In this document: piece by piece, positions 15,608 through 33,526 of the stretch
Layout of the letters: each line of letters opens with the position of its first letter
How positions within the stretch are numbered: the stretch's first letter is position 1
Assembly: GCF_009708035.1 (NCBI RefSeq)
Contig: NZ_WMBQ01000002.1
Location: forward strand, 744,001 to 808,000
Source of the DNA: Hyphomicrobium album
GTDB taxonomy: Bacteria > Pseudomonadota > Alphaproteobacteria > Rhizobiales > Hyphomicrobiaceae
Direction: 5' to 3'
DNA: 64,000 nt
Made by a program: the position numbers and the translations under genes
The notes under the pieces: generated by a model
Database searches by the model: none
What the model was told of the DNA's origin: nothing
Seen by the model: only the letters and a program-made list of their open reading frames with translations

Positions 15608-16192
15608 TCAGAACCGCCAGGGCGCGGTGGCGCGCAGCCAGTCGGCGAGCTCCTGCCAGGGCTCGACCTTCCAGTACCGGCGCGCCGCGGCCGATGGTGA
15701 CGGCAACACGAACGCGTCGCAGAAGTCGGGCGGACGCCGCTTCTGGCGACCGTAGGGGATGCGGTCGGTGCGCCGGCGCAGCCAGAGGCCCGCCGCCTTC
15801 TTGCCGGTAAAGGCGATGGCCCGCGGCTGGCACGCGCGGAGCTTCGCGTCGAAGACGGCGATGTCGGCCGCAGTGACGACGACATCGCGGTCCATGCCGC
15901 AGCCCGTCTTGCTCAAGTCAGTGAAGCCGATGCCGATGCTCATAAGCTCGGCGAAGTCGCGCGCTGCAAAGCGCGGCGGGATGAGCTCGACCTGCCGCAG
16001 CATCGGCCAGAACCTGTTTCCCGCACCGGCATAGTAGATGCCGCGCGCCAATGATCGGCGCCCGGCGGCGGTGCCGACGAACACGACGTCGAGATTGTCG
16101 GCGAGGACATCGGGGAGCAGATGCGCAATTGCCGCCGCATCCGATGGCGGCAAAGTCGGCGCGGCGATGCGAAGCGCGAGGTCCGCGTCCAT
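15608..16192 (-). CDS. Mug/TDG-like uracil-DNA glycosylase superfamily protein
   Basis: 194 residues related to mismatch-specific uracil/thymine DNA glycosylases. Motif 1 appears as VFVGTAAG followed by YYAGAGNRFWPML, and motif 2 as LPSPSAAARRYW. These correspond to GINPG...NRFW and NPSG in E. coli Mug. The usual catalytic Asn of motif 1 reads Ala here, which suggests another subfamily or altered specificity. The start is uncertain: ATG at 16192 has only a weak ribosome site, and a GTG at 16282 would add 30 residues. It would remove damaged or mismatched bases in the cytoplasm. Confidence 0.75.
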   Translation of the reverse strand: MDADLALRIAAPTLPPSDAAAIAHLLPDVLADNLDVVFVGTAAGRRSLARGIYYAGAGNRFWPMLRQVELIPPRFAARDFAELMSIGIGFTDLSKTGCGMDRDVVVTAADIAVFDAKLRACQPRAIAFTGKKAAGLWLRRRTDRIPYGRQKRRPPDFCDAFVLPSPSAAARRYWKVEPWQELADWLRATAPWRF

Positions 16193-16645
16193 GGAGGCCC
16201 GTTGGCGAATCAGCGGCGCGATCTGATGCAAACGCTGTGGCGTCGGCGGCCATGCCGCAATCGGAATTTGACGAGTATTCACGGGTTTGGCACCGCGCGT
16301 TGCTTTCATGCTCGCGGGGTGACGAGCATGTTGGACGCCGCGACGCTGGAAGCGGAACGCCAGGTGATTGCATTGCCATTTGCGTCTCCCCGCACGTGAG
16401 GCACTCCCAAGCCACACCTTGCGCAGCGGCAAAGCGCATCCCGTCGCCCTGCGTCCTTCGGCGATGCGATTGCGCCGTTTACGCTTCCTTGAGCATTCGG
16501 TTACGCCCCCGGCGCAAGCGCCGGGAGTGAGCAATTTTGCGAATAAGCTCAGAAGATCTTCTTCGTTCGGTCGCCGCCCGGCCAACGTTAGTTCTCTCTT
16601 CCCCGGACCTGATTGGTTGAGGTCACGGTTAGAGAGGATGCACCT
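16193..16645. other. 453-bp gap: sulfate-type control region
   Basis: No convincing gene is visible in this stretch. It holds a perfect 8-bp hairpin at 16508-16525 (CCCGGCGC/GCGCCGGG) and, 18 bp further on, the sulfate-regulon element at 16543-16568, both upstream of the sulfate-binding protein gene. Confidence 0.5.
16543..16568 (+). promoter_or_regulatory. Shared sulfate-regulon element, copy 1 (sbp)
   Basis: ATAAGC at 16543-16548 is followed 16 bp later by GTTC, with T-rich bases at fixed positions between them. The same phased pattern occurs at 21758, 22539 and, on the other strand, 30310. This copy is 77 bp upstream of the sulfate-binding protein start. It is a candidate CysB-type LysR binding site. 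Confidence 0.55.
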
Positions 16646-17683
16646 ATGAAGATCGATTTCACCCGGCGGCAGGCGCTGGCACTCGCCGTTGCCGCCAGCC
16701 TCGTCGGCGGCGCCTCGGTGGCGCAGGCCCAGACGACGCTGCTCAACGTTTCTTACGATCCGACGCGCGAGCTCTATCAGGAGTACAACGCCGCGTTCGC
16801 CAAGCACTGGAAAGAGAAGACCGGCGAGGACGTCACCATCCAGCAGTCGCATGGCGGTTCGGGCAAGCAGGCCCGCGCGGTCATCGATGGCCTCGACGCC
16901 GACGTCGTCACCCTGGCGCTCGCCGGTGACGTCGACCAGCTCGCCAAGAAGGGCAATCTCATCCCTGCCGATTGGCAGAAGCGCCTGAAGGACAATTCGT
17001 CTCCCTACACCTCGACGATCGTGTTCCTGGTGCGCAAGGGTAACCCCAAGGGCATCAAGGACTGGAACGATCTGGCCAAGGACGGTGTCGAGGTCGTCAC
17101 GCCAAACCCGAAGACATCGGGCGGAGCACGCTGGAACTACCTCGCCGCGTGGGGTTATGCGCTCAAGCAGGCGGGCGGCAGCGACGCGACGGCGAAGGAC
17201 CTCGTCGGCAAGATCTACAAAAACACCAAGGTGCTGGACACCGGTGCTCGCGGCTCGCTCACCACATTTACCGAGCGTCAGATCGGCGACGTGCTGATCT
17301 CCTGGGAGAATGAGGCCCATCTCGCCACTAAGGAACTCGGTCCCGACAAGTTCGAGATCGTCATTCCTTCGATCTCGATCCTCGCCGAGCCGCCGGTCAC
17401 GGTCGTCGACAAGAACGTCGACAAGAAGGGCACGCGCAAGGTCGCCGAAGCCTACCTCGAGTACCTCTACTCGCCGGAAGGCCAGGAGATCGCCGGCAAG
17501 CACTTCTATCGCCCGCGCGATGCCAAGGTGGCCGAGAAGTACAAGGCTCAGCTGTCGCCGGTGAAGCTGTTCACCATCGACGAAGTCTTCGGTGGCTGGG
17601 CAAAGGCGCAGAAGACCCACTTCGACGACGGCGGGATTTTCGACCAGATCTATGCGCCGGGCGCCGCCGACAAGAAGAGCTGA
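16646..17683 (+). CDS. sbp: Sulfate ABC transporter substrate-binding protein
   Basis: 345 residues. A signal peptide containing [14 protein letters not shown] ends near AQA. The mature protein matches the Sbp/CysP family: [14 protein letters not shown], the ligand-loop region [13 protein letters not shown], then [19 protein letters not shown] and [19 protein letters not shown]. It captures sulfate or thiosulfate in the periplasm for the CysTWA transporter, whose genes lie 5 kb away in this window. The start at 16646 has a GAGAGGA ribosome site. The shared 26-bp element lies 77 bp upstream, so it is probably under CysB-type control. Confidence 0.93.
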
Positions 17684-17692
17684 TCTGAATAG

Positions 17693-17772
17693 GACGATCG
17701 GTCAAAACCTCGATCAGCAACGGACCCACGCCGCACGCTGATCGAGGCTACCGCTCCCGAATACCGATCGTC
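17693..17772. repeat. Nested perfect inverted repeat downstream of sbp
   Basis: The outer arms GACGATCGGT (17693-17702) and ACCGATCGTC (17763-17772) are perfect complements, as are the inner arms CCTCGATCAGC (17708-17718) and GCTGATCGAGG (17737-17747). Together they form an 80-bp two-step stem with unpaired linkers. There is no T tract, so it does not look like an ordinary terminator. It may be a 3'-end RNA structure of sbp or an intergenic palindromic element. Confidence 0.6.
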
Positions 17773-17866
17773 GGGTGTGCGCCGACTTTCTCGCTGGGGT
17801 TCCCGCTCACGCAAGCGCAGGAAGCCGGCGCACGCACTTTCACCATCCAACGAGGCGAGGCTCGCC

Positions 17867-18436
17867 ATGGATACCACTCTCATCGTACCCGGCCTGCACG
17901 GCAGCGGCAGCGATCATTGGCAATCCTGGTTCGAGCGGCAGATGCCCGACAGCGTGCGTGTCGAGCAGAACGACTGGGGCACGCCTGATCTTTCCCTCTG
18001 GTCGGCGCAAATCCATCACGCGCTCAACCGCAATTCCGGCCGCATCTATATCGTCGCTCACAGCTTCGGCTGCCTCGCAGCCGTGCAGACGGCGCACGAC
18101 CATGGCCAGCGCATCGCCGGTCTCATGCTCGTCGCGCCGGCCGATCCGGCCCGCTTCGGATTGCAGAACGTCATCACCAACGGCGTGCTCGGCGCGCATT
18201 CGGTTGTCGTCGCGAGCACCAACGATCCGTGGATGCCGATCGATCGCGCCGCGGCCTGGGCGGAAGCTTGGGGCTCGGAGCTGATCAATCTCGGCGCTGC
18301 CGGACACATCAACGTCAGCTCGGGATACGGCGCGTGGCCGCGCGGTCTCGCCATCTATCGCTCGCTGCGAGGCGACGTGCCGCGCAGCTTCGCACAACGC
18401 CGCGCGCACGATGCGCTTCACGCAGGAGACTTCTGA
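17867..18436 (+). CDS. RBBP9/YdeN family alpha/beta serine hydrolase
   Basis: 189 residues. The nucleophile lies in VAHSFGCLA, the acid in ASTNDPWMP and the histidine in AAGHINVSSGYGAW, the usual pattern of YdeN/RBBP9 hydrolases. It opens with LIVPGLHGSGSDHWQSWFE, the oxyanion region of the family. The natural ester or amide substrate is unknown. The ATG at 17867 has GAGG upstream; a longer frame from 17777 would add a basic, non-conserved tail. It sits between sbp and the porins and could belong to the same sulfur-related set (inference). Confidence 0.85.
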   Translation: MDTTLIVPGLHGSGSDHWQSWFERQMPDSVRVEQNDWGTPDLSLWSAQIHHALNRNSGRIYIVAHSFGCLAAVQTAHDHGQRIAGLMLVAPADPARFGLQNVITNGVLGAHSVVVASTNDPWMPIDRAAAWAEAWGSELINLGAAGHINVSSGYGAWPRGLAIYRSLRGDVPRSFAQRRAHDALHAGDF

Positions 18437-18558
18437 TGCGCGCGCGTCGTTCACCGCGGCACGCATTGCATTCGCTGCAACGGAAAAGTGTGTCCGCTGC
18501 GCAGCAGCGCGCGATCGCTGTCATCAGTCATCACAATGCGTCGTTGACGAGGAGGTGA
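18436..18558 (+). CDS. Possible 40-residue basic peptide, TGATG-coupled
   Basis: An ATG at 18436 overlaps the hydrolase stop (TGATG), with GGAG eight bases before it inside the hydrolase gene. The frame gives 40 residues rich in Arg, Ser and His, with no membrane segment and no known motif. Coupled translation is plausible, but the codon pattern could also be chance. Confidence 0.25.
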   Translation: MRARRSPRHALHSLQRKSVSAAQQRAIAVISHHNASLTRR

Positions 18559-18586
18559 GAGACCTAAAAGCTGTAGATATATCAGT

Positions 18587-18619
18587 CCGTTATAACTTCA
18601 CTTGACGCCAATATAACGG
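18587..18619. repeat. Inverted repeat upstream of the first porin
   Basis: CCGTTATA (18587-18594) and TATAACGG (18612-18619) are perfect complements 17 bp apart, about 50-85 bp before the porin start codon. This could be a regulator site or a 5' leader hairpin. Confidence 0.4.
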
Positions 18620-18670
18620 AGACCAAGTCGCGTAGCGTCTGTTGCGTAATTGTAAGCGTAGGAGTTTGTG

Positions 18671-20074
18671 ATGTACGGGGGAGTAGGGGGTAGGGTCGGC
18701 CTTGCGCTGGTCCTTGGTCTAGGCATATTCGCCGGAGCCGCGCCGGCTCGCGCTGCCGATCTCGGAGGAGATTGCTGCGCAGACCTAGAGGAGCGCATCG
18801 CCGAGCTCGAGGCGACCACGGCGCGCAAAGGCAACCGCAAAGTTTCGCTCGAAATTTCGGGCCATGTGAACGAGGCGGTGCTGTGGTGGGACGACGGTAG
18901 AGAGAGCAATGCGTACGTCGTTACCAACGACAACTCGCGCACGCGCTTTCGCTTCAAGGGCAAAGCCAAGATCGATAAGGATTGGGAGGCCGGCTATCAG
19001 ATCGAGATCGGCATTCGTACCGCCAACTCGAAGCGCGCCAACCAGTTTAACGCAAAGGGCAATGACTTCGCTGAAGACGTGGGTTTCGATATCCGCGACT
19101 CATACTGGTTCGTGAAGAGCAAGACGTACGGCCGTCTCTCGGTCGGCAGGCAAGGGACCGCCACCGACCAGATTACCGAGATCAATCTCTCTCAGACAGC
19201 ATCGTTCTCCAAGTATTCTGACATCGAGGATACGGGGCTGGGCATGCTGCTGCGCTCCAAGAACGGTGGCCTCACCGCCAATGGAGTCGGCGCCACGGGC
19301 CAGACGGGCCTTACTTGGCGGCGTCTCATCGGTGACGGCGGCGACCAGCCGGGCGAAGGCGAGCGGCGGTTCAACGCCGTGAAGTATGTATCGCCGGAGT
19401 TCGCCGGCTTTACCGCCTCTGCCGCCTGGGGCGAGGATGACTATTGGGATGCAGCCCTCAACTGGCAGGGCGAGTTCCATGGCTTCACCATCGAGGCTGG
19501 CATCGGCTACGGCGAGATTACCGATAACCTGCAGACACAGACTGTCTGCGCCTTTTCAGCTGTTGGGGCGCCCGACACCAAGTGCAGCCAGTTTGGCGGA
19601 TCGATCAGCGTCCTGCACGAGAAGACCGGCCTGTTCGTCAACTTCGGCGCCGGCGAAAAGACGGATGACGTTGCGCGCCGTACGGCGGTCGGTGCCGCCG
19701 GAGCAAGTGACGAGCAGACGTTCTGGGCCGTCCAGGGTGGTATCGAGAAGAAGTTCACCGAGTACGGCAAGACGACCGTCTACGGCGAGTACTATGACTA
19801 CGATGGCGGCGGTAACAGCCGCCGTACCATCGCGTCCGCGACCGACCCGCTCAATACGGTCGGCGTCGCCGGCGCGCAGATCTGGTCGACCGGCGTGCAA
19901 TCCTACGGCGCCGGCATCGCCCAGGGCTTCGACAAGGCGGCGCTCCTCGTCTACCTCTCCTATCGCCACGTCGAAGGCGATTTGACCCTCCGCAATCCCG
20001 TCACGGGGGCGATCGCCGATTCGCCGCTCGACGACCTCGACCTCGTCATGTCGGGTGCGATTATCAAGTTCTGA
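18671..20074 (+). CDS. Outer membrane porin (tandem copy 1)
   Basis: 467 residues. After a signal peptide ending ARAAD comes a short coiled-coil-like stretch with a double Cys (DCCADLEERIAELEATTARKG), then a long beta-rich domain ending in SGAIIKF. The terminal Phe is the outer-membrane insertion signal. It resembles general porins of Rhizobiales that form trimeric diffusion channels. The start at 18671 has GGAG eight bases upstream. A close paralogue follows at 20293. The position inside the sulfate block suggests, but does not prove, a role in anion uptake across the outer membrane. Confidence 0.85.
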   Translation: MYGGVGGRVGLALVLGLGIFAGAAPARAADLGGDCCADLEERIAELEATTARKGNRKVSLEISGHVNEAVLWWDDGRESNAYVVTNDNSRTRFRFKGKAKIDKDWEAGYQIEIGIRTANSKRANQFNAKGNDFAEDVGFDIRDSYWFVKSKTYGRLSVGRQGTATDQITEINLSQTASFSKYSDIEDTGLGMLLRSKNGGLTANGVGATGQTGLTWRRLIGDGGDQPGEGERRFNAVKYVSPEFAGFTASAAWGEDDYWDAALNWQGEFHGFTIEAGIGYGEITDNLQTQTVCAFSAVGAPDTKCSQFGGSISVLHEKTGLFVNFGAGEKTDDVARRTAVGAAGASDEQTFWAVQGGIEKKFTEYGKTTVYGEYYDYDGGGNSRRTIASATDPLNTVGVAGAQIWSTGVQSYGAGIAQGFDKAALLVYLSYRHVEGDLTLRNPVTGAIADSPLDDLDLVMSGAIIKF

Positions 20075-20102
20075 TCTCGCAACGCCGGTACAACACGCAG
20101 AA

Positions 20103-20131
20103 AGAGCCGCCTCCGGGCGGCTCTTTTTGTT
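20103..20131 (+). terminator. Rho-independent terminator after porin 1
   Basis: A 9-bp stem (20103-20111 with 20116-20124) closed by a TCCG loop is followed by TTTTTGTTT, 29 bp after the first porin stop. It separates the two porins into different transcripts. Confidence 0.88.
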
Positions 20132-20292
20132 TGCGCGATCGCTCAGAGTGGCGGCGGCGCCAACCATCGCGGAGAAAACCGGCAAACGGCTGTCACAGAA
20201 TCACATGCCAATCCTGGGGTGAGGCGCGAATCGGTTAGCGTCGATGCAAATCAAAGCGTTGTGCCAGCACGCGGTCGTTTCTTTGCGGAGGC

Positions 20293-21723
20293 ATGTCATT
20301 GACCCGGATCCTGACAGGCCCCGCGCGGGCGCAACTGATCGCCGCCACTTTGGCCGCTACCTTCGCATGTGCGCCGTCGCTTGCGCAGGCGACGGACCCC
20401 GGCAGCTCTTGCTGCGCCGATCTCGACGCGCGCATCGCTGAGCTCGAGGAGACGGTCGCACGCCGCGGCAATCGAAAGGTCGGCCTCGAAATCTATGGTC
20501 TCGTCAACCAGGCGCTGCTCGGCTGGTATGACGGCAAGGAATCAGACGCTTACTTGGTTACCAACGACAACCAGCGCACGCGCTTCGGCTTCAAGGGGAA
20601 GGCGAAGATCGACAAGAACTGGGAAGCCGGGTTCAAGATCGAGATCGGCATCCGCTCAGCGAACTCCAAGCGCGTCAGTCAGATCGACCCCAAGGGCGAC
20701 GACAACCCGGACGACGTCGGCTTCGATCTGCGCGATATCTACTGGTACCTGAAGGAGAAGCACCGCGGCACTCTGATCGTGGGCTTGAGCAATGCCGCCA
20801 CGGACAAGATCACCGAGATCAATCTCACGCAGACGGAATCGTTCGCCAAGTACTCGGACGTCGAGGATACCGGTCTCGGCATGCTGCTGCGCTCGGCCGT
20901 GAACGGGCGGTTGACGAGCAGCGGCATTTCCTGGCGGCGCCTCATCGGCGACAGCGGCGATCAGCCGGGTGAGGGTGAGCGCGGATTTGACATGATCAAG
21001 TACGAATCCCCCGCCGTGCACGGGTTCTTTCTGTCGGCTTCGCTGGGTACGAAGGAGTTCTGGGATGTGGCGCTCCGCTACAAGGGGGAGTTCGGCGACG
21101 TCAAGTTCGAGGCCGGTGTCGGCTACCTCGAGGTCATCGACGGCGCGGAACTGGCGGTGTGCGCCGCCGCGGAGGTCGACAATATCGCCTTCGACGGCAC
21201 GGTACACTCAAACCAGGACTGCCAAAGCTACGGCGGATCGTTCAGCGTTCTGCACGAGAAGACGGGCCTGTTCCTGAATTTCGGCACCGGCTTGAAGGTG
21301 GACAACTTGATCCGCGACACGCAGCGCTTCTCCGGCACCAACGTTGACGAGGACCAGTTCTTCTGGGCGGCGCAGGCGGGCGTTGAAAAAAAATTCAACG
21401 ACCTCGGCAAGACCACCATCTACGGCGAGTACTACAACTATGACGGCGCCGGCGGTACGCGGCGCACGGTCAGGGCCGGCGATGCGCTCAACCCGACCGG
21501 AACCGGCAACTGGGCCGAGTGGTATACGGACGTGAACATCATGGGTGCCGGCATCGCGCAGGGCATCGATAAGGCCGCGATGATCCTCTATCTTTCATAT
21601 CGTCATGTAGAGGGCGAGCTGCAGCTCCGACAGCTCAACGGCGTCGTGGCCAACGGGCCGATCGCGGATGCGCCGCTCGATGATCTCGATCTTCTGTTGA
21701 CGGGCGCGGTGATCAAGTTCTGA
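20293..21723 (+). CDS. Outer membrane porin (tandem copy 2)
   Basis: 476 residues, clearly paralogous to the porin ending at 20074. It has a signal peptide ending AQAT, the same SSCCADLDARIAELEETVARRGNRKV stretch in which only spacing and side residues vary, shared blocks such as EDTGLGMLLRS and FSVLHEKTGLF, and a terminal GAVIKF. The start ATG at 20293 has GGAGG close upstream. Differences are concentrated in the loops between the shared strands, as expected if channel selectivity diverged. The first copy has its own terminator, so this one needs its own promoter. Confidence 0.85.
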   Translation: MSLTRILTGPARAQLIAATLAATFACAPSLAQATDPGSSCCADLDARIAELEETVARRGNRKVGLEIYGLVNQALLGWYDGKESDAYLVTNDNQRTRFGFKGKAKIDKNWEAGFKIEIGIRSANSKRVSQIDPKGDDNPDDVGFDLRDIYWYLKEKHRGTLIVGLSNAATDKITEINLTQTESFAKYSDVEDTGLGMLLRSAVNGRLTSSGISWRRLIGDSGDQPGEGERGFDMIKYESPAVHGFFLSASLGTKEFWDVALRYKGEFGDVKFEAGVGYLEVIDGAELAVCAAAEVDNIAFDGTVHSNQDCQSYGGSFSVLHEKTGLFLNFGTGLKVDNLIRDTQRFSGTNVDEDQFFWAAQAGVEKKFNDLGKTTIYGEYYNYDGAGGTRRTVRAGDALNPTGTGNWAEWYTDVNIMGAGIAQGIDKAAMILYLSYRHVEGELQLRQLNGVVANGPIADAPLDDLDLLLTGAVIKF

Positions 21724-21757
21724 TCGTCTTCGAGATCCGCGCTTTGCCGCCGGCTTC

Positions 21758-21783
21758 ATAAGCTCATCTGTTTTTCTTCGTTC
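21758..21783 (+). promoter_or_regulatory. Shared sulfate-regulon element, copy 2 (XRE-cupin gene)
   Basis: ATAAGC at 21758-21763 with GTTC at 21780-21783 keeps the spacing seen before sbp and the cys operon, and the intervening bases (TTTTTCTTC) match closely. It lies 68 bp before the XRE-cupin start. Confidence 0.55.
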
Positions 21784-21850
21784 CCCGCATAACCCGTCGC
21801 TCCTAGCTTCCCTAACAAGAGTTGGGGCTGTTCAGGATGCGGGGGTGCCG

Positions 21851-22510
21851 ATGAGCTCGTCGGCAGAATTGCTTATGGCGCGGACGGACAAGGAGCACGG
21901 CACACGTCGGCCGCGCTTCGATGGTGGCGCGAGTGCGCCGCGATCGCTTCCCGCCATCATCGGCACGAACCTGAAGCGGCTGCGCACCCGTCAAGGACAT
22001 TCGCTGGAGCGTCTCGCCAAGCTTGCCGGCGTCAGCCGCGCGATGCTGAGTCAGATCGAGACCGGCAAGAGCGTCCCGACCATCAGCCTGTTGTTGAAGG
22101 TCGCCGAGGCACTCGGCGTGTCGCTGGCGACGCTGGTGTCGAAACCCGCGTCGCAACAAACCAAAGTTCTCGTGCGCAATACCTCGCCGCTGCTGAGCAG
22201 CAATGGCGGCCGCTTCACGGCGCGGGCGCTGTTCGTTCCCTCCGAGGCGGACGCACGCGTCGAGTTCTACGAGTGTCGCCTCGCCGCCAAGCACCGCGAG
22301 GCGTTCGAGCCGCAGGTGGGCGGCACGCGCGAGAGCATCGTGGTGGTGAAGGGACGCGTCGAGCTGACGGTGGGGGTCGACCAGCCGCTGCTGCTGTCCG
22401 AGGGGGACGCAGCGCTGTTCCAGGCAGACGTCGAGCGCATCTTCCGCAATCCCGAGGGGAACGAGGCCTTGCTCTACCGGGTCGTCACCTACAACGGGAA
22501 GAGCGGCTGA
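21851..22510 (+). CDS. XRE-family regulator with C-terminal cupin domain
   Basis: 219 residues. The N-terminal third is a helix-turn-helix of the Cro/CI type (IIGTNLKRLRTRQGHSLERLAKLAGVSRAMLSQIETG). The C-terminal part is a small cupin barrel that would bind an effector. Such proteins repress or activate catabolic and transport genes. The start is ATG 21851; a GTG at 21845 is also possible. It lies just upstream of the cys operon and carries the same upstream element as sbp and cysT, so it probably belongs to the sulfate or sulfonate response (inference). Confidence 0.83.
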   Translation: MSSSAELLMARTDKEHGTRRPRFDGGASAPRSLPAIIGTNLKRLRTRQGHSLERLAKLAGVSRAMLSQIETGKSVPTISLLLKVAEALGVSLATLVSKPASQQTKVLVRNTSPLLSSNGGRFTARALFVPSEADARVEFYECRLAAKHREAFEPQVGGTRESIVVVKGRVELTVGVDQPLLLSEGDAALFQADVERIFRNPEGNEALLYRVVTYNGKSG

Positions 22511-22538
22511 CGGCGCCGAGCCATTAGCAGTTTTCCGC

Positions 22539-22564
22539 ATAAGCACTGCAGTTTTTGTTCGTTC
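22539..22564 (+). promoter_or_regulatory. Shared sulfate-regulon element, copy 3 (cys operon)
   Basis: ATAAGC at 22539-22544 is followed at the fixed distance by TTCGTTC (22558-22564). It lies 54 bp before the 26-codon gene that heads the cysT-cysW-cysA operon. Confidence 0.6.
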
Positions 22565-22617
22565 GCGCTGAGCAGACGTATCGCTACGCTGCCGGCGTCA
22601 TAACGAAGGGGGTAACC

Positions 22618-22698
22618 ATGTCTGCCGACCACGTGCTGTCCTGGGCCGGACTGCTCAGCGCAGTGCTGTTCCTGACGCTCATCGTCGTCATCGCATAG
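22618..22698 (+). CDS. 26-residue single-helix membrane peptide heading the cys operon
   Basis: An ATG at 22618 with AAGGGGG seven bases upstream encodes 26 residues, MSADHVLSWAGLLSAVLFLT then LIVVIA. Nearly all of it is one transmembrane helix after a short polar start. It ends 26 bp before cysT and follows the sulfate element, so it would be the first cistron of the transporter operon. Small helices of this kind can stabilise or modulate membrane complexes. No family is known to me. Confidence 0.55.
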   Translation: MSADHVLSWAGLLSAVLFLTLIVVIA

Positions 22699-22724
22699 GC
22701 ACGGCGGATCGGGAGCCAAAGGTC

Positions 22725-23555
22725 ATGGCGGCGGCGCGCAGGGTACTGCCCGGTTTCGGGCTTTCGATGGGGGTGACGCTCGCGTACCTCTCGCTGATCG
22801 TATTCATTCCACTCACGGCTGTCTTCATCAAGAGCGCGTCGCTCGGGTGGAGCGAGTTCTGGCACGTCGCGACGACCCCACGCGTGATGGCCTCCTACCG
22901 CTTGAGCTTCGGGGCCTCGCTGCTGGCGGCAGCGATCAATGTCGTATTCGGCCTGATGCTGGCGTGGAGCCTGGTTCGCTATAACTTCCCCGGCCGTCGC
23001 ATCGTCGATGCGCTCATCGATCTGCCGTTCGCCCTCCCGACCGCCGTCGCCGGCATTGCCCTGACCGCTCTCTACGCGCCCAACGGGTGGCTCGGCCATT
23101 ACCTCGAGCTGATCGGCATCAAGGTTGCGTTCACACCGCTCGGGGTGCTCGTCGCTCTGGTTTTCATCGGCGTGCCCTTCATCGTGCGTACGGTGCAGCC
23201 GGTGCTCGAGGACCTCGACATCGAGTTCGAGGAGGCCGCTGCCAGTCTCGGCGCCACGCGTTTGCAGACCATCCGTCGCGTCGTGCTGCCGGCGTTGGGA
23301 CCCGCGCTGCTGACCGGTTTTGCGCTGGCCTTCGCCCGCGCCGTCGGCGAATACGGCTCGGTGATCTTCATCGCCGGCAATCTGCCGATGATCTCGGAAA
23401 TCACGCCCCTGATCATCATCACCAAGCTCGAGCAGTACGACTACGCCGGCGCGACGACGGTGGCCGCCGTCATGCTGATCGTGTCCTTCATCCTGCTGCT
23501 CATCATCAACGTGCTGCAGGCCTGGACGGCGCGCTCGAACGAAAGGTCGCGGTAA
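22725..23555 (+). CDS. cysT: Sulfate ABC transporter permease CysT (CysU)
   Basis: 276 residues with six membrane helices and the cytoplasmic EAA loop (EEAAASLGATRLQTIRRVVLP) that docks with the ATPase. The segment FARAVGEYGSVIFIAGN is typical of CysT. It forms the inner membrane channel with CysW. cysW starts at the next base, and the whole operon reads through to the LysR gene. Confidence 0.93.
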   Translation: MAAARRVLPGFGLSMGVTLAYLSLIVFIPLTAVFIKSASLGWSEFWHVATTPRVMASYRLSFGASLLAAAINVVFGLMLAWSLVRYNFPGRRIVDALIDLPFALPTAVAGIALTALYAPNGWLGHYLELIGIKVAFTPLGVLVALVFIGVPFIVRTVQPVLEDLDIEFEEAAASLGATRLQTIRRVVLPALGPALLTGFALAFARAVGEYGSVIFIAGNLPMISEITPLIIITKLEQYDYAGATTVAAVMLIVSFILLLIINVLQAWTARSNERSR

Positions 23556-24446
23556 ATGGCCGTCGTCGCCCACGCCGCGCCGTTCGCCCGCGCCGAGCGC
23601 TTCGAGGCGAGCCCCGCCGCTGCCGATCCGCCGCTGGTGAAGTGGATCGTCATCGGCATTTCGCTGGCCTTCTTCGCCACCTTCCTACTGTTGCCGCTGG
23701 TGGCGGTCTTTGTCGAAGCCTTCAAGAAGGGCTGGGAAGCCTATTTCAGCGCCATCGCTACGCCCGACACGCTCTCCTCTATCAAGCTAACGCTGCTGGC
23801 GGCGGCAATCGCCGTCCCGCTGAACGTCGTCTTCGGAATTGCTGCCGCGTGGGCGATCGCCAAGCACGACTTTCGCGGCAAGCAGTTTTTGATCACACTG
23901 ATCGACCTGCCGTTCTCGGTTTCGCCGGTCATCGCCGGCCTCATCTACGTCCTGGTGTTCGGTCTGCAGGGCTGGTTTGGGCCATGGCTGTACGAGCACG
24001 ACATCAAAATCATCTTCGCCGTGCCCGGCATCGTGCTGGCGACGATCTTCGTCACGGTGCCGTTCGTCGCCCGCGAGCTCATTCCGCTCATGCAGGCGCA
24101 GGGACGCGAGGAAGAAGAGGCGGCGCTGGTGCTCGGCGCCACGGGTTGGCGGATGTTCAAGAGCGTGACGCTGCCCAACATCAAATGGGGTCTGCTGTAT
24201 GGCATCATCCTCTGCAACGCCCGCGCGATGGGCGAGTTCGGCGCCGTGTCGGTCGTGTCCGGCCACATCCGCGGTCAGACCAACACCATGCCGCTGCACG
24301 TCGAAATTCTTTATAATGAGTACCAATTCGCCGCCGCGTTCGCCGTGGCGTCGTTGCTGGCACTGCTAGCCCTGGTCACCCTGGTCCTGAAGACCTTCGT
24401 CGAGTGGCGGGCCGGCATTCAACCGCATGAGCCCGAGGCACCATGA
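23556..24446 (+). CDS. cysW: Sulfate ABC transporter permease CysW
   Basis: 296 residues and six membrane helices. The EAA loop is [23 protein letters not shown], and [27 protein letters not shown] is the CysW signature. It pairs with CysT. Its start directly follows the cysT stop and its end overlaps cysA by 4 bp (ATGA), so translation is coupled. Confidence 0.94.
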
Positions 24447-25546
24447 GCATCGAAGTCCGCGGCATCCGCAAAACGTTCGGCAGCTTCGTCGCGCTGGATA
24501 ACGTCAGCCTGGATTTTCCGACCGGCCAGCTTGTCGCGCTGCTCGGCCCTTCGGGATGCGGCAAGACCACGCTTTTGCGCATCATTGCCGGCCTCGACTA
24601 CGCGGATCAGGGCAGCATCATCCTCGACGGCGAGGATGCCTCCGGTACGCACGTGCGCGAGCGGCAAGTCGGATTCGTGTTCCAGCACTATGCGCTGTTC
24701 CGGCACATGACGGTGTTCGACAACGTCGCCTTCGGGCTGCGCGTGAAGCCGCGCCGCCTGCGGCTGCCCGAGCGCGAGATCAAGAAGAACGTGAAAGAGC
24801 TGCTCGAGCTGGTGCAGCTCGGCTGGCTCGCCGATCGCTATCCCTCCCAGTTGTCCGGCGGCCAGCGCCAGCGCATCGCACTTGCCCGCGCCCTCGCAGT
24901 GCGTCCGCGTGTGCTGCTTCTCGATGAGCCGTTCGGCGCGCTCGACGCCAAGGTGCGCAAAGAGCTGCGACGCTGGCTGCGCCGGCTGCACGACGAGCTG
25001 CACATCACCTCGCTGTTCGTGACCCACGATCAGGACGAGGCGATCGAGCTGGCCGACCGGCTGGTGCTGATGAACAAGGGCAAGGTCGAGCAGACGGGCA
25101 CCGTGCGCGAGGTCTACGCCAAGCCGGCCACGCCGTTCGTCTATTCGTTCCTCGGCGCGGTGAACAAGTTCAGCGGCCGGGTCGATGGCGAATATCTGCG
25201 GGTCAACGGCAACGTGATGCCGATTGCCGGCGGGGGCGGCGTCAATGGCAGCGACGTCGTTGCGTTCGCCCGCCCGCACGAACTCGACATCGTTGCCGCC
25301 GACCGGGGCGATGCGGTGGGCGTGCCTGCAACTGTGAACCGCATCCTCGACGTCGGCGCCGTGGCCCGGGTCGAGCTGAGCGCGCCGGCTTACCAGTCGA
25401 ACGGCGCCGGAAAGCCGGCCGAGCCGCAGTTCTTCGAGGTGGAATTATCGGCCCAGAAACTTTCCGAGCTTAATCTCGCCGCCGGCCAGCCAGTCCGCCT
25501 CGTGAGTTCGAGGCTCCGGGTCTTCGATCGAGGCGCCCAGACGTGA
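24443..25546 (+). CDS. cysA: Sulfate ABC transporter ATP-binding protein CysA
   Basis: 367 residues with Walker [10 protein letters not shown], signature LSGGQRQR, Walker [14 protein letters not shown] and the switch histidine in THDQDEA. The C-terminal extension contains a TOBE-like regulatory domain, as in other CysA proteins. It powers sulfate or thiosulfate import. It overlaps cysW by 4 bp and the downstream LysR gene by 4 bp. Confidence 0.95.
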
Positions 25547-26487
25547 ACTTCCAGCAGCTTCGCATCATCCGAGAAACCGTACGGCGCAAGTTCAATTTAA
25601 CGGAAGTCGCCAACGCCCTGCACACGTCGCAGTCGGGTGTCTCCAAGCACATCAAGGATCTCGAGGACGAGCTCGGCATCGAGTTGTTCGTGCGTCGCGG
25701 CAAGCGGCTGCTCGGCCTGACGGAGCCCGGAAAGGAGCTGGTCGGCATCGTGCAGCGCATGTTGCTCGACGCGCGCAACATCAAGCAGCTCGCCGAGCAG
25801 TTCGCCTCTGCCGATCTCGGCGAGCTGACGGTGGCGACGACGCACACCCAGGCGCGCTATGCGCTCCCCCAGGTGGTGGTGAAGTTCAAGCAGGAGTTCC
25901 CCAAGGTGCGCCTCGTTCTGCATCAGGCGAGCCCGAAGGAGATCGTCACCATGCTGCTCGAGGGAAGCGCCGACATCGGCGTCGCCACCGAAGCGCTGGA
26001 GGAGAACCCGGACGTCACCTCGTTTCCGTACTACTCATGGGACCATGCGGTGATCGTGCCGGCGGGGCACGAGCTCGAAAAGGTCGATCCGCTGACGCTC
26101 GAAGCGATCGCCGAGTGGCCGATCATCACCTACGACCCGGGCTTCACCGGCCGCTCGCGTATCGATCAGGCATTCGCCAAAGCGGCGATCGTGCCGGACA
26201 TTATCATGACGGCGCTCGACGCCGACGTGATCAAGACCTACGTCGAGGCGGGGCTGGGCATCGGTATCATCGCCTCGGTCGCGTACGATCCCAAGCGTGA
26301 TACGGGGTTGAAGCTTCTGTCGGCGAAGGGGCTGTTCGCGCGCAACACCTCGCGCATCGCCGTGCGCCACGGCCGCTACCTGCGCGGCTACGCCTATCGC
26401 TTCATCGAGTTGTGCTCGGCGGACCTGACAGAATCGGTGGTGCGCTCGCGTATTGCGCCCAAGGCCGACGACGACGTCACCGACTAA
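25543..26487 (+). CDS. CysB-like LysR regulator in the cys operon
   Basis: 314 residues. It starts at a GTG whose GTGA overlaps the cysA stop. The N-terminal helix-turn-helix ([20 protein letters not shown] and [18 protein letters not shown]) resembles CysB/Cbl. The effector domain contains [11 protein letters not shown], the sulfate/acetylserine-site region of CysB, and [14 protein letters not shown]. It is expected to activate sulfate assimilation genes when sulfur is limiting and to bind the shared 26-bp element (inference). Being the last gene of the transporter operon, it would be autoregulated. A paralogue lies at 29255-30187. Confidence 0.9.
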
Positions 26488-26489
26488 TC

Positions 26490-27179
26490 TCAGCCAACAG
26501 CTTCTATGCGAAGCGCGAGCTGCGGCGGGCAGTCGATCAGCCAGTCCTTGATGCCGTCGGCGACGGTGCGATAGACGGCGGCGCCGGTCGCCTCGCCGAG
26601 CGCGGTGTGCTTACCCGCGTATGATTGCGGGTCACCGCCTAGGGGAGCGGCGACCGCGACGCAGTCCGTGCCTGTGCCGGTGACGGCGAGGCCACCGCGC
26701 GCGATGCTGGCGTCGATTACGGCCGCGGTGCGCGCCTCGGTGGCGATCGACATGGCTTCGAGCATCGCGCCTTCGGTCAACGACTGCCCGACGTGCACGA
26801 GCAGATTGATGGTGCCGGTGAACGGCGGCGGCTGATGCAGCCGCGTACCGACGCGCTCGCTGTTCGACAGTCCGACGGTCGCGATGCAGCGCACGTGCTG
26901 ATCTTCGACCGTCGCGCGCGCCACTTGGTAGCGCGAGATATCACGCGAGGTGACGAGCGTCACGGCATCGTCGAGGCCGGCAGCGGCGATCCGCTGCCGG
27001 ATGACCTCGAACGCGTCCACCTCGGGCGGCAGGTCGGCGTTGCGCACCTCGAGCCATGCCACGCGGGTCGCAACCTGGAGACCGGGGCGGAGCGGCGCCC
27101 AGCTCAGGACCTGGTGCGGCCCGTTGAACGCCACGACCAGGTGCGGCGGAGCAAGCGCGATCGAGAATGGGTCGTGCAT
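26490..27179 (-). CDS. cbiZ: Adenosylcobinamide amidohydrolase CbiZ
   Basis: 229 residues matching CbiZ: RVAWLEVRNADLPP, TVGLSNSERVG, the block PPFTGTINLLVHV and ALTEARTAA-like and AVTGTGTDCVAVA segments. CbiZ removes the aminopropanol tail from adenosylcobinamide to give adenosylcobyric acid, letting the cell salvage corrinoids made by others. It is followed on the same strand side by cbiB, the next step of the route. Its stop is 2 bp from that of the convergent LysR gene. I see no cobalamin riboswitch before it. Confidence 0.88.
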   Translation of the reverse strand: MHDPFSIALAPPHLVVAFNGPHQVLSWAPLRPGLQVATRVAWLEVRNADLPPEVDAFEVIRQRIAAAGLDDAVTLVTSRDISRYQVARATVEDQHVRCIATVGLSNSERVGTRLHQPPPFTGTINLLVHVGQSLTEGAMLEAMSIATEARTAAVIDASIARGGLAVTGTGTDCVAVAAPLGGDPQSYAGKHTALGEATGAAVYRTVADGIKDWLIDCPPQLALRIEAVG

Positions 27180-27230
27180 CCGCCTCTCGCGGTGAATTGG
27201 GCCACGGCATCGCTACGGTCGGACGGCGAT

Positions 27231-28199
27231 TTATGCAAGTGCGACGGCGATACAACCGATGGTCAGGGCCTGCAGGACGCAGGCTAGGCGAATGACGGAT
27301 AGTGCACGCCGGATGTCGCCCGCGGTGGCCTCGGCGCGGCCGTCGCCCATCCAGTGGTCGTCCACGGCGACACCGCCATAGACGCGCGGTCCGGCGAGCC
27401 GCAGGCCGAGGGCGCCCGCCATTGCCGCCTCGGGCCAGCCGGCGTTGGGCGAGCGGTGTGCCCGGGCGTCGCGCATCACGGCGCGCGCCGCCGCGGACGC
27501 GTCGAGCCCGGGCAGCAACGCCGCCGCAACGACGATGAATAGGGCCGACAGACGTGAGGCCGGCAGGTTGACGAGGTCGTCGAGGCGCGCTGCGGCCCAG
27601 CCGTAGGCGTGATAGCGCTCGCTCTTGTGGCCGATCATGCTGTCGGCGGTGTTGATGGCCTTGTAGGCGCCGGCACCGGGGAGCCCGCCGACGAGCAGCC
27701 AGAACAGGGGCGCGACGACGCCGTCGGAATAGTTCTCCGCCAGGCTCTCGATGGCGGCCCGGCTGACCGCGGCCGTATCAAGCGCGGCCGTATCGCGGCC
27801 GACGATCCGCGCCACCGCCGTGCGTCCGCCCCCGATGCCGTCCTGCTCCAGCGCCGTGGCGACGGCGCTCACATGCTCGTAAAGGCTCCGTTGGGCGATC
27901 AGCGTGCTGGCGAGTGCTCCCACCAGGATAAGGGCGAGGACGGGCGGCAGCAGGGACTGGACGACTGCGACAATGGCGACGCAGAGCCCTGCCGTGACGC
28001 CGACGGTGACCAGAAGTGCGGCCAATCCGTGCAAGCGGCGGCGGCCGAAGGAGAGGCCGGGCGCGTTCCAGTGGCGCTCGCACCATGCTATCAGGCGCCC
28101 CATCCAACTCACCGGATGGCCGATGCGGGCGAACACCCACTGCGGATAGCCGAGGGTGGCGTCGAGTGCGGCGGCGGTGAGCGCAGTGAGCGGGTACAT
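27231..28199 (-). CDS. cbiB: Cobinamide-phosphate synthase CbiB (CobD)
   Basis: 322 residues and several membrane helices. The family signatures are ALDATLGYPQWVFARIGHPVSWMG at the N-terminus (shown here in part), SLAENYSDGVVAPLFW and GAYKAINTADSMIGHKSERY. It attaches aminopropanol phosphate (or threonine phosphate) to adenosylcobyric acid. With cbiZ and cobC it forms a salvage set. The start codon overlaps that of the divergent cobC by two bases, so at least one of the two starts, or its promoter, is unusual. Confidence 0.9.
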   Translation of the reverse strand: MYPLTALTAAALDATLGYPQWVFARIGHPVSWMGRLIAWCERHWNAPGLSFGRRRLHGLAALLVTVGVTAGLCVAIVAVVQSLLPPVLALILVGALASTLIAQRSLYEHVSAVATALEQDGIGGGRTAVARIVGRDTAALDTAAVSRAAIESLAENYSDGVVAPLFWLLVGGLPGAGAYKAINTADSMIGHKSERYHAYGWAAARLDDLVNLPASRLSALFIVVAAALLPGLDASAAARAVMRDARAHRSPNAGWPEAAMAGALGLRLAGPRVYGGVAVDDHWMGDGRAEATAGDIRRALSVIRLACVLQALTIGCIAVALA

Positions 28200-29244
28200 G
28201 AAAGTCGATCCAAGCGCGGTGGTGCAGCCGGGTGCTAGCACGCCTGAGGGGCGGGCAGAAACCATCGAGCATGGCGGCGATCTCGCCGCGGCGCGCTTGC
28301 GGTTTCCGGCGGCACCCGAGCCGTGGATCGATTTGTCGACGGGCATCAACCCGCATGCCTACCCCTTGCCGGCAATCGATGCAGACCTATGGGAGCGGCT
28401 GCCACAAGCTTCCGACGAACAGGCGGTGTTGCAGGCGGCGGCGCAACGCTACGGCTGCAAGGCAAACAATATCGTCGCGGCGCCGGGCAGCCAGGCATTG
28501 ATTCAGGTTCTGCCGCGTCTCTTCGAGCCATCCGACGTCGTCGTGCTCGGTCCGACCTACGGCGAGCACGCAGCCGCGTGGGAGCGTTGCGGGCATCGCG
28601 TTGTGGAGCGGCGCGCGTCGTCTGACATTGGCGAGGCGCGTGTCGCCGTCGTCGTCAACCCGAACAATCCGACCGGGCGGGTGATCGCCGCCAACGAGTT
28701 GCGCGCCCTGGCTGCCGTGCTGGCACAGCGTCGCGGGCTGCTGGTCGTCGACGAGGCGTTCGCCGATTTCGCGGAGCCGGGCGTGAGCGTCGCGGCGCAA
28801 CTTCCGCCGGCGACGGTCGTGCTGCGCTCGTTCGGCAAGGCGTATGGGATCGCCGGCGCGCGGCTAGGGTTTGCCGTGGCAGATCCAACCTTGTGCGCGA
28901 GGCTGAGCGGTGAGCTCGGACCGTGGGCGGTGTCGGGGCCGGCGCTCGCGATCGGTTCAGCAGCGCTTGCCGATGAGCGCTGGCTCGCCGCCATGCGCGT
29001 TCGGCTGGCTGAGGATCGGCGGCGGCTCGATACATTGCTGCAAGCGTGCGGATTGGTAGTCGAGGGCGGCACGCATCTGTTCTGCCTGGCGCGGCACGCA
29101 CAGGCGCGAGCGATCGCCGACAAGCTCGGCCGCTCGGGAATTCACGTGCGCCGCTTTGCGGCGGAACCGAAATGGCTGCGCTTCGGCCTGCCGGGTGCGG
29201 AGGCCGAATGGGAGCGCCTTGCGGACGCGACGACCGCAGAGTGA
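28198..29244 (+). CDS. cobC: Threonine-phosphate decarboxylase-like PLP enzyme (CobC)
   Basis: 348 residues of the class I/II aminotransferase fold. The family start HGGDLAAARLRFP and IDLSTGINPHAYP are followed by NPNNPTGR and the PLP-lysine region RSFGKAYGIAGARLGF. It makes aminopropanol phosphate from threonine phosphate for the CbiB step. The ATG at 28198 overlaps the cbiB start on the other strand. GTG codons at 28219 and 28222 are alternative starts that would still keep the conserved region. Confidence 0.88.
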   Translation: MKVDPSAVVQPGASTPEGRAETIEHGGDLAAARLRFPAAPEPWIDLSTGINPHAYPLPAIDADLWERLPQASDEQAVLQAAAQRYGCKANNIVAAPGSQALIQVLPRLFEPSDVVVLGPTYGEHAAAWERCGHRVVERRASSDIGEARVAVVVNPNNPTGRVIAANELRALAAVLAQRRGLLVVDEAFADFAEPGVSVAAQLPPATVVLRSFGKAYGIAGARLGFAVADPTLCARLSGELGPWAVSGPALAIGSAALADERWLAAMRVRLAEDRRRLDTLLQACGLVVEGGTHLFCLARHAQARAIADKLGRSGIHVRRFAAEPKWLRFGLPGAEAEWERLADATTAE

Positions 29245-29254
29245 GCCGCGGTAC

Positions 29255-30187
29255 TCACCGCCCCGGCGGCTGGTCGAGCGCCTTGCGCACGAGGTTCTCC
29301 TTCAGCGCCGGCGAGCACAGCTCGATAAAGCGGTAGACGTAGGCGCGCAGGTAGCGGCCGCGCCGCACGCCAAGGCTCGACGTGTTGGTCTCGAAGAGAC
29401 CGGTGGCCTCGAGCCGGCGCAGCTTGGTATCGCGCTCCATGTCGAACGCCATGGCGGCGATGATGCCGACGCCGAGACCGAGCTCGACATAGGACTTGAT
29501 CACGTCGGCATCCAGCGCCGAGATGGCGATATCGGGCACGACGCCGGCGCGCGCGAAGGCGTCGTCGATGCGCGTGCGGCCGGTCAGGCCCTCGTCGTAG
29601 GTGATGATCGGCCACTCGGCGATGTCGTCCAGCGTTAGCGGATCGCGGGAGAGAAGCGGGTGCCCGACAGGAACTACGACGGCGTGCTCCCAACTAATGT
29701 AGGGGAAGGTCGCCAGGCCGCTGGTGTTTTCCATGCTGTCGGTAGCTAGGCCAATATCCGTTTCACCCTCGAGCAGGATGGTGGCGATATCGCGCGGGCT
29801 AGCTTGGTTGAGCGCCAGGCGCACGTTGGGAAACGCTTGTTTGAAACGGGCGATGATCGGTGGCAGCGTATAGCGCGCCTGCGTGTGAGTGGTGACGATG
29901 CGCAGCGTGCCTTCGTCCTGAGCCGAAAGGCGGCTACCGATTTCCGACAGGTTGCCGGCGTCGATGAGCATGCGCTCGACGATCTCGATGGCCTGCTTGC
30001 CGGCCTCCGTGAGGCCGAGCAGGCGCTTGCCGCGTCGCACGAACAGCTCGACCCCCAGCTCGTCCTCGAAATCCTTGACGTGCTTGGAGACGCCCGACTG
30101 GGAGGTCAGCAGCACGTTGGCAACTTCCGTTAAATTGAAGTTGCAGCGCGCGGTTTCGCGGATGATGCGGAGTTGCTGGAAGTTCAT
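29255..30187 (-). CDS. Second CysB-like LysR regulator
   Basis: 310 residues, strongly similar to the LysR protein encoded at 25543-26487: the same [11 protein letters not shown] start, [29 protein letters not shown] and ITYDEGLTGRTRID. The start at 30187 matches the paralogue; an upstream extension to 30238 has no support. It transcribes away from a copy of the 26-bp sulfate element located about 98 bp upstream. Two CysB-like proteins may split the response, as CysB and Cbl do in enterobacteria (sulfate versus organosulfur sources); that is inference. Confidence 0.88.
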   Translation of the reverse strand: MNFQQLRIIRETARCNFNLTEVANVLLTSQSGVSKHVKDFEDELGVELFVRRGKRLLGLTEAGKQAIEIVERMLIDAGNLSEIGSRLSAQDEGTLRIVTTHTQARYTLPPIIARFKQAFPNVRLALNQASPRDIATILLEGETDIGLATDSMENTSGLATFPYISWEHAVVVPVGHPLLSRDPLTLDDIAEWPIITYDEGLTGRTRIDDAFARAGVVPDIAISALDADVIKSYVELGLGVGIIAAMAFDMERDTKLRRLEATGLFETNTSSLGVRRGRYLRAYVYRFIELCSPALKENLVRKALDQPPGR

Positions 30188-30284
30188 GCCGGGCTCGCGT
30201 CCGGCGCATATGAGGATTGGCGCATCGTCTCCCCGCAAGACAGCACTGATCTGCGGGGAACGTAGAAGCTTTAAGCGCCGGACT

Positions 30285-30310
30285 GAATAACGATATTCGG
30301 ATTAGCTTAT
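30285..30310 (-). promoter_or_regulatory. Shared sulfate-regulon element, copy 4 (second LysR)
   Basis: On the reverse strand ATAAGC (30310-30305) is followed by a 20-base segment ending in TTC that fits the phase of the other three copies at most positions, though it is the weakest match. It lies about 98 bp before the second CysB-like gene. Confidence 0.45.
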
Positions 30311-30365
30311 GCAGATTCCTGCTTAGGCCGGTCCGTAGACTGTCATCGCGTGACGAATGTCTGAA

Positions 30366-32538: not shown

Positions 32539-32634
32539 AGCATCGCCGATCCGTGCTTCTGAAAAATAAACGTGATATAATAATGGCTTGGCCACGTTCT
32601 CGGGTCCGGCCATTGGCTGCATGGAACCCGTTTC

Positions 32635-32659
32635 GGAACTTTTCACGAAGTTGAGCGTT
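32635..32659 (+). promoter_or_regulatory. EcfG-type promoter (GGAAC-N16-CGTT) for phyR
   Basis: GGAAC at 32635-32639 and CGTT at 32656-32659, spacing 16, an exact consensus match 51 bp upstream of the phyR start. It implies positive feedback of EcfG on phyR. Confidence 0.75.
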
Positions 32660-32710
32660 TGTGCCGGTTGCGAAGACACCGAACAGTGGGCGGCCTATAA
32701 AGGGGAGACC

Positions 32711-33526
32711 ATGTCCATCTCAGAAATCATCGCGCCGCAGCTTCCGTATCTGAGACGGTTCGCGCGCGTATTGTCAGGCAGCCAGGACAGCGGCGACGCC
32801 TACGTCGTGGCCATGCTCGAGGCCATCGCGGCAGATCCGTCGATGTTCCCCGCCGATCTCGAGCCGCGCGTCGCGACCTATCAGAGCTTCCTCGACGTCT
32901 GGAGTTCGGTGCGGCTCAATCAGAAGAAGTACGACGCGCCCGTATCCGAGCGCCTTGCCGCCGCCGATCGCAAGCTCGAGGCGATCACGCCGCGTGCCCG
33001 CCAGGCGTTTCTGCTGATGGCCGTCGAGGAATTCTCGACCGCGGATACCGCGAAGGTGCTGAAGACCAACGAGACCGAGGTCAAGGCGCTCGTCGATCAG
33101 GCAGCGTCCGAAATCGCCGAGCAGGTCGCGACCAACGTTCTCATCATCGAGGACGAGCCGATGATCGCGCTCGATCTCGCCGACCTCGTCACCGGCCTGG
33201 GCCACGACGTGTGCGAGACGGCGCGTACGCATAGCGAAGCGGTAGCCGCCTTCAAGAAGCACAAGCCGGGCCTCGTGCTGGCTGATATTCAGCTGGCCGA
33301 TGGCAGCTCGGGCCTCGAGGCCGTCAACGAGATCCTGCAATCGTTCGACGTGCCGGTGATCTTCATCACGGCCTACCCCGAGCGCCTGCTCACGGGCAGC
33401 CGTCCGGAGCCGACCTTCCTCGTCAACAAGCCCTTCCGCACCGAGACGGTCCAGGCCGTCATCAGCCAGGCGCTGTTCTTCGACTACAAGGCGCACCGGC
33501 CGAACGCGAAGGTCGCCGCCGGCTAA
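32711..33526 (+). CDS. phyR: General stress response regulator PhyR
   Basis: 271 residues. Residues 1-135 are a sigma-factor-like domain (an ECF sigma2/sigma4 mimic, starting MSISEIIAPQLPYLRRFARV). Residues about 140-260 are a receiver domain with acidic pair EDEP, the phospho-Asp in LVLADIQLADGSSG, and the Lys in VNKPF. On phosphorylation the sigma-like part binds NepR and frees EcfG. A GGGGAG ribosome site precedes the ATG at 32711, and the promoter at 32635 excludes longer starts. It is convergent with ecfG, separated by a bidirectional terminator. Confidence 0.96.
   Translation: MSISEIIAPQLPYLRRFARVLSGSQDSGDAYVVAMLEAIAADPSMFPADLEPRVATYQSFLDVWSSVRLNQKKYDAPVSERLAAADRKLEAITPRARQAFLLMAVEEFSTADTAKVLKTNETEVKALVDQAASEIAEQVATNVLIIEDEPMIALDLADLVTGLGHDVCETARTHSEAVAAFKKHKPGLVLADIQLADGSSGLEAVNEILQSFDVPVIFITAYPERLLTGSRPEPTFLVNKPFRTETVQAVISQALFFDYKAHRPNAKVAAG

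Follow-up and report, generated by a model that had tools for sequence, protein, structure and literature searches.

What reads a short DNA element that recurs in front of sulfur genes in Hyphomicrobium album, and what does it do there? The element was found in a stretch of 64,000 nucleotides (contig NZ_WMBQ01000002.1, positions 744,001 to 808,000; hereafter the window, which is C2:744001-808000 of the 3.9-Mb genome that we label G000), where 26-bp copies precede the sulfate-binding protein gene sbp1, an XRE-cupin regulator gene, the sulfate permease operon starting with cysT, and cysB2, one of two genes for CysB-family LysR regulators. We propose, with a probability of about 0.8, that the element serves as operator for a Cbl-like activator of the CysB family and that, together with a -10 box held in fixed phase, it would form an activator-dependent promoter.

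The first-pass annotation had placed ATAAGC, followed at a fixed distance by a T-rich run ending in (G)TTC, at 16543, 21758 and 22539 on the forward strand and at 30310 on the reverse strand, and all four elements are indeed found there. The gapless agreement claimed for the first three is borne out, with 20-21 of 26 bases shared in each pairwise comparison, while the 57 bases upstream share only 10-21. The T-rich run holds for sites 1-3 and fails at site 4, which is not T-rich, ends in TTATTC and agrees with the other elements at 14-18 of 26 bases. Duplication of the upstream DNA was considered as a cause of the similarity and rejected, as the flanks agree far less than the element. Allowing up to three mismatches, a core pattern built from sites 1-3 occurs three times in the window against 0.17 expected, and none of 100 shuffles reached three, a count that is partly circular as the pattern derives from these very sites. 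The looser pattern of the first-pass annotation, which takes in site 4, occurs four times against 0.92 expected; since 3 of 100 shuffles also reach four, site 4 is weak when taken alone.

A less circular test of the window sites is provided by a 55-position matrix trained on 44 sites from other genomes (48 listed sites minus the four that precede CysB genes), with no G000 site used. The scores of the four elements (Table 1) can be set against a next-best score of 0.6 in the window, which overlaps site 1, and against the maxima of 60 first-order Markov surrogates of the window (mean -3.5, standard deviation 3.8, largest 6.3). A search model from other genomes likewise recovers sites 1-3, at E-values of 1.2e-9 to 3.8e-8. 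For element 4, 22 of its 26 letters are conserved before the relative of cysB2 in another genome, G033 (hand count).

Perfect matches to the pattern of sites 1-3 number four in the 3.9 Mb, located before sbp1, the XRE-cupin gene, cysT and a second sulfate-binding protein gene, sbp2 (C1:2011452), so that the genome scan for further sulfur genes proposed by the first-pass annotation proved specific. With up to three mismatches, 11 matches are found genome-wide compared to four for the reversed pattern, and the fifth match, with two mismatches, precedes a 90-aa gene of no Pfam family. That gene lies in a region (L021:8033-10038; G000 C1:522000-524100) with three element-like sites in 1.3 kb, scoring 52.3, 22.0 and 13.2, two of which precede the 90-aa gene and another serine hydrolase gene, from the same family as the one after sbp1. 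Separately, two weak matches (L124 and L125; G000 C1:1810930-1811578) lie upstream of a gene that by eye resembles a XoxF methanol dehydrogenase.

Across the 44 sites, the full unit reads TKC-ATAAGCTCAGCAN-TTCTTCTTSGTTC, followed by a poorly conserved 20-nt spacer and a -10 box TANNNT, with T in 95%, A in 98% and the final T in 84% of sites; the first two values are inflated, as the loci behind 21 of the 44 sites were retrieved with a pattern that required TA at the -10 place. All four window elements have TA 20 nt after the element, within a possible -10 box (Table 1). Sites picked by the 26-bp core alone give a fairer test than these percentages: among 51 of the 59 core matches found in 40 genomes of the family, 21 of 24 sites that precede sulfur genes have TA at +20, versus 4 of 27 others (Fisher 1.7e-7). 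Leaving out the window genome, in which the box had been spotted first, a hand count gives 18 of 20 versus 3 of 26. The FadL-like, flavoprotein and serine acetyltransferase references had first entered the sulfur set because of sites before them, and the test was repeated without these three; the CysK reference was added after a site had been seen before cysK, and this site lacks TA and so counts against the association. Three of the four non-sulfur sites with TA may be true sites, namely those before the FadL-like and flavoprotein genes of G038 and before the 90-aa gene of G000 (matrix scores 30.8, 32.9 and 52.3).

If transcription starts about 7 nt past the box, the element would span about -58 to -33 and cover the -35 region, with its centre at about -45. 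A consensus scan of 16400-16700 gave no sigma-70-like promoter around site 1. The layout is that of a predicted activator operator adjoining a weak promoter. It is hard to reconcile with the idea that the conserved letters belong to a leader RNA (a riboswitch or attenuator), for which only their location ahead of coding regions speaks: the element precedes the -10 box and hence falls outside the predicted transcript, a search of 16000-31000 gave no Rfam family at or above its gathering score, and the four stretches fold with z-scores of -0.85 to -1.91 into differing shapes. We consider a leader RNA extremely unlikely.

The distribution of the unit among genomes points to its binder. CysB-family genes are rare in the order, being present in 9 of 249 genomes at E <= 1e-60. 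With one mismatch allowed, the unit is found in 8 of these 9 genomes versus 4 of the 240 without CysB (Fisher 1.3e-11, own genome included and kinship not corrected); seven of the eight belong to one family and the eighth, G202, to another. The four exceptions without CysB have one mismatch each, and no open reading frame seen there matched the sulfur reference set. Records matching the unit pattern are mostly named Hyphomicrobium or Hyphomicrobiales. At E <= 1e-3, the search model finds matches in 14 of 17 CysB-positive genomes versus none of 18 CysB-negative genomes (part of the 25 family genomes without CysB), scoring the best 150 first-look candidates per genome and thus missing weak sites; of eight CysB-positive genomes that gave no training site, five have model matches. 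Twenty-one of the 59 core matches have at most one mismatch, and all but one of these fall in CysB-positive genomes; those with two mismatches include many without a sulfur gene. The best matches therefore do not hit random intergenic regions as often as sulfur genes, the outcome that the first-pass annotation had named as telling against its proposal.

The same counts bear on another reading, in which the unit would serve an alternative sigma factor, such as one of the extracytoplasmic function (ECF) type, as its promoter and would not be an activator operator. The distance from the element's right end to the -10 box is fixed, as it would be in such a promoter, and an EcfG-like sigma gene (33620-34210) and a PhyR-like gene (32588-33526), both named by eye, are located nearby. 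However, ATAA, among the most conserved blocks, is placed some 20 bp ahead of any -35 position, the -10 box is an ordinary TANNNT, and the unit is absent from 236 of the 240 genomes of the order without CysB, leaving a sigma factor promoter very improbable.

The XRE-cupin protein is another candidate binder, which would then autoregulate: its gene lies between sbp and cysT with an element before it, and the protein resembles E. coli SutR, called a regulator of sulfur utilisation in a title cited in PMC8464067. Yet an XRE-cupin match (E <= 1e-15) is absent in 8 of the 17 CysB-positive relatives, and five of these eight (G002, G020, G023, G234 and G202) still carry the element at E <= 1e-3, so that its presence tracks CysB rather than the XRE-cupin gene; a remoter XRE-cupin relative (27%) is, however, present in G202. 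Moreover, the YdcN/SutR motif is palindromic (PMC8464067), while the element is asymmetric. Binding by the XRE-cupin protein is thus very unlikely. The claim that these scattered genes form one regulon under a CysB-type regulator is supported, on sequence grounds, by genome-wide specificity, by the same genes bearing the element in other genera and by the joint presence of element and regulator. Two refinements are also supported: the regulator appears nearer to Cbl, and the XRE-cupin gene is a probable target rather than a likely binder.

Among eight matches to CysB1 in G000, only CysB1 and CysB2 are close, the other six having 24-30% identity. CysB1 shares 52% identity with E. coli Cbl versus 43% with E. 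coli CysB. In a midpoint-rooted tree with several forks open, 41 of 43 rows, including CysB1, CysB2 and Cbl, stand apart from E. coli CysB (the sole named CysB proper) and a distant row from G575. By these comparisons, E. coli Cbl is a nearer relative of the predicted window regulators than E. coli CysB is. Of the polar N-acetylserine contacts described for Klebsiella CysB in PMC11329422, CysB1 keeps T100, T102, Q103, T149, E150, W166 and Y197, and CysB2 has D in place of E at 150; M246 of the pocket is V in CysB1.

With two regulators in the window, it is conceivable that there are two operators, one read by CysB1 at sites 1-3 and the other by CysB2 at site 4 and at a distinct set comprising cysK and the encapsulin genes. 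Site 4, the weakest element, keeps its letters before the G033 relative, and the CysB2 relative of G021 adjoins an operon for serine acetyltransferase, the SrpI shell and a desulfurase. On the other side, CysB1 and CysB2 share 65% identity and the identical recognition-helix core TSQSGVSKH, and G028 and G187, in which one CysB was found each, have sbp and XRE sites, with an acetyltransferase site also in G028. We regard two operators as doubtful. Second-copy CysB proteins group into a single clade (100/98) within the Hyphomicrobiaceae section of the tree, a section whose deeper forks are open.

Table 1. Features of the sulfur cluster and of the encapsulin locus in G000; positions refer to the window unless stated otherwise.
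Feature	Position	Strand	Details
Element 1, before sbp1	16543..16568	+	matrix score 48.6; 77 nt ahead of ATG 16646
Element 2, before XRE-cupin gene	21758..21783	+	matrix score 54.2
Element 3, before cysT operon	22539..22564	+	matrix score 45.6
Element 4, before cysB2 (weaker)	30285..30310	-	matrix score 8.8
Predicted -10 box of sbp1	16589..16594	+	TAGTTC; 20 nt after element 1
Predicted -10 box of XRE-cupin gene	21804..21809	+	TAGCTT; after element 2
Predicted -10 box of cysT operon	22585..22590	+	TACGCT; after element 3
Predicted -10 box of cysB2	30259..30264	-	TACGTT; after element 4
sbp1, sulfate-binding protein	16646..17683	+	NCBIfam NF008022, E 1.4e-158
Serine hydrolase (PF06821) after sbp1	17867..18436	+	similar-looking gene after sbp in G202 (by eye)
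XRE-cupin regulator, SutR-like	21845..22510	+	HTH_3 and Cupin_2
Small 26-aa hydrophobic protein, after element 3 and ahead of cysT	22618..22698	+	purine-rich stretch before start
cysT, sulfate permease	22725..23555	+	TIGR02139, E 4e-127
cysW, sulfate permease	23556..24446	+	TIGR02140, E 9.2e-127
cysA, sulfate ABC ATPase	24443..25546	+	TIGR00968, 387 bits (cut-off 342.75)
cysB1, CysB-family LysR regulator	25543..26487	+	last gene of cysT operon; NF009327, 439 bits (cut-off 402)
cysB2, CysB-family paralogue of cysB1	29255..30187	-	NF009327, 419 bits (cut-off 402)
Sulfur encapsulin locus of G000	L020:1938-7570 (G000 C1:2005000-)		cysK, SrpI shell, cargo desulfurase, then element, sbp2

Within the family, the element precedes sbp, the XRE-cupin gene and the cysT operon, the same genes as in the window. 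It also stands before the CysB2 relatives of G021 and G033, 400 bp ahead of CysB1 in G234, and before cysK in G021 and, more weakly, in G038. Outside the family, G202 has ten model matches at E <= 0.3, including sites before sbp, ssuD and an SsuA-family binding protein gene; elements in G202 also precede more NMT1-like binding protein genes and a flavin reductase gene. Elements were also noted before genes for fumarate reductase-like flavoproteins, in G038 (L186:836, +) and, by eye, in G202 (L193:1889, -, and 2106, +), beside a sulfonate-binding protein gene.

Operons for serine acetyltransferase, the SrpI shell and a desulfurase carry the element in G038 (score 36.7), G004 (25.5, with TA one base closer) and G021 (16.7), and on a short stretch of G028 it precedes an acetyltransferase gene (23.8). 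The highest score of these loci, 48.0, was obtained in L098, before genes for a rhodanese, an acetyltransferase-like protein, SrpI and a desulfurase; this record is labelled Accumulibacter and may be misbinned. The locus of G000 itself encodes a shell matching SrpI (PDB 6x8m, E 6.4e-136) and a cargo desulfurase (NF041166, 830.3 bits, cut-off 800). There, no element precedes the encapsulin set; it sits between the set and sbp2, in an order shared by G007.

The window cluster contains further genes of interest. A hydrophobic small open reading frame of similar size occupies the place of the 26-aa gene in all 13 Hyphomicrobium-group loci examined, against none of five other loci, and it shows third-codon-position bias in six pairwise comparisons. 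Between sbp and the XRE gene lie two tandem porin-like genes on the forward strand (18668-20074 and 20293-21723), the second matching Gram-negative porin and the first no Pfam family.

Several observations weigh against a CysB-family operator. No model match was found in 3 of the 17 CysB-positive relatives (G012, G030 and G037), although G012 has a weak site before sbp scoring 6.7. Site 4 is missing from the model matches in G000, and its conserved counterpart in G033 has no TA at +20. In G000, weak matches at C1:246531, 1811523 and 1810930 precede genes with no visible sulfur link, and cysH-cysD (best upstream score -21.1) and, by matrix scan, cysK and srpI have no element upstream. A canonical LysR T-N11-A box could not be made out by eye. 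In the inducer pocket, F at position 199 is replaced by P in CysB1 and by E in CysB2. Finally, when a 29-position matrix was compared with letter shuffles on the upstream regions of E. coli cysP, cysJ, cysK, cysD, tauA, ssuE, sbp and cysB, none of the eight was significant (p 0.09-0.68). The sequence TTCATTCGTTC in E. coli cysD is reminiscent of the element and was not counted.

In E. coli, the targets of CysB include sulfate-uptake genes; Cbl of E. coli and SsuR of Burkholderia are sulfonate regulators. The system proposed here shares with the E. coli and Salmonella CysB regulon a CysB-family LysR regulator, sulfate-uptake targets, an operator just upstream of or at the -35 region and a largely kept acetylserine pocket. 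In enteric bacteria, activation sites have their centre 50-60 bp ahead of the start, and the operator consensus is very weak (PMC11329422). In contrast, the operator here is sharp, its matrix misfits the eight E. coli regions, and cysH-cysD of G000 is without it. Like E. coli Cbl, CysB1 has TSQSGV in the recognition helix, and ssuD and an ssuA-family gene are predicted targets in G202; unlike Cbl, its gene lies within, and is the predicted controller of, a sulfate-uptake operon, and the E. coli tauA and ssuE regions give no match. The XRE-cupin protein has the domains of SutR (YdcN) and 31% identity to it over 183 columns, most of its length (E 9e-26), whereas here its gene is a predicted target inside the sulfate-uptake cluster.

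For the encapsulins, two papers give a point of comparison: in Synechococcus, the SrpI shell and cysteine desulfurase cargo rise on sulfate starvation (PMC8049743), and acetyltransferase and rhodanese genes neighbour family 2A encapsulins (PMC8346489). A title cited in PMC8049743 links plasmid genes of Synechococcus to sulfur and CysR regulation. Shell, cargo and neighbours are the same here, but the operon carries a CysB-type element in some relatives of the window genome.

Beyond the order, the regulator is found in 2 of 385 genomes of the class at E <= 1e-60 and in 20 of 299 of the phylum at E <= 1e-100, own genome included in these counts. On 20 genomes (19 other genomes of the phylum plus G575), the search model gave nothing below E 0.016. 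The only two full-length matches there, in G860 and G866 of one family, have TA at +20 and precede an SsuA-family gene and an alkanesulfonate monooxygenase-type gene. Upstream regions of cys, sbp and cysB genes in these genomes (11 of 12 scanned) reached a best full score of 12.3, before cysB of G695. It is possible that the operator is shared with other classes.

How such an operator would work can be outlined. At sulfide shortage, the inducer acetylserine (as N-acetylserine) would build up and bind CysB1 or CysB2, and a CysB tetramer at about -58 to -33 would contact RNA polymerase at a weak -35 region. Uptake and regulator genes, plus storage and sulfonate genes in relatives, would then rise together. 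CysB1 and CysB2 would raise their own supply and, because cysB1 is the last gene of the target cysT operon, activation would feed itself. The SutR-like protein, which the same operator would switch on, may trim, shape or end the response. We lean slightly towards a wider reading, in which the Cbl-type activator of Hyphomicrobiaceae is master of sulfur scarcity, using one phased operator for sulfate uptake and the small membrane protein, sulfonate use, the SutR-like regulator and the genes of the activator itself, to which several species add the sulfur-storing encapsulin operon. As this operon encodes serine acetyltransferase, the maker of the acetylserine precursor, a feed-forward loop would result.

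CysB regulons are already known. As far as literature searches show, the new features are the sharp operator of this group, whose -10 box is held in phase; the encapsulin operons and the SutR-like gene as predicted members; and a hydrophobic 26-aa protein conserved within the cysT operon. A search that mostly could not reach subscription papers found no paper naming both 'encapsulin' and 'CysB', and a term search of a comparative regulon paper (PMC5343134) found CysB unmentioned in its main text. The element would provide a CysB-family operator sharp enough for targets to be found from sequence alone, in an order that has few such regulators. It also predicts regulon members that can be tested, namely sulfur encapsulins, a SutR-like regulator and the 26-aa hydrophobic protein of the sulfate transporter operon. 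If the wider reading of a master activator is true, it would identify the regulator behind a group of family 2A encapsulins of proteobacteria.

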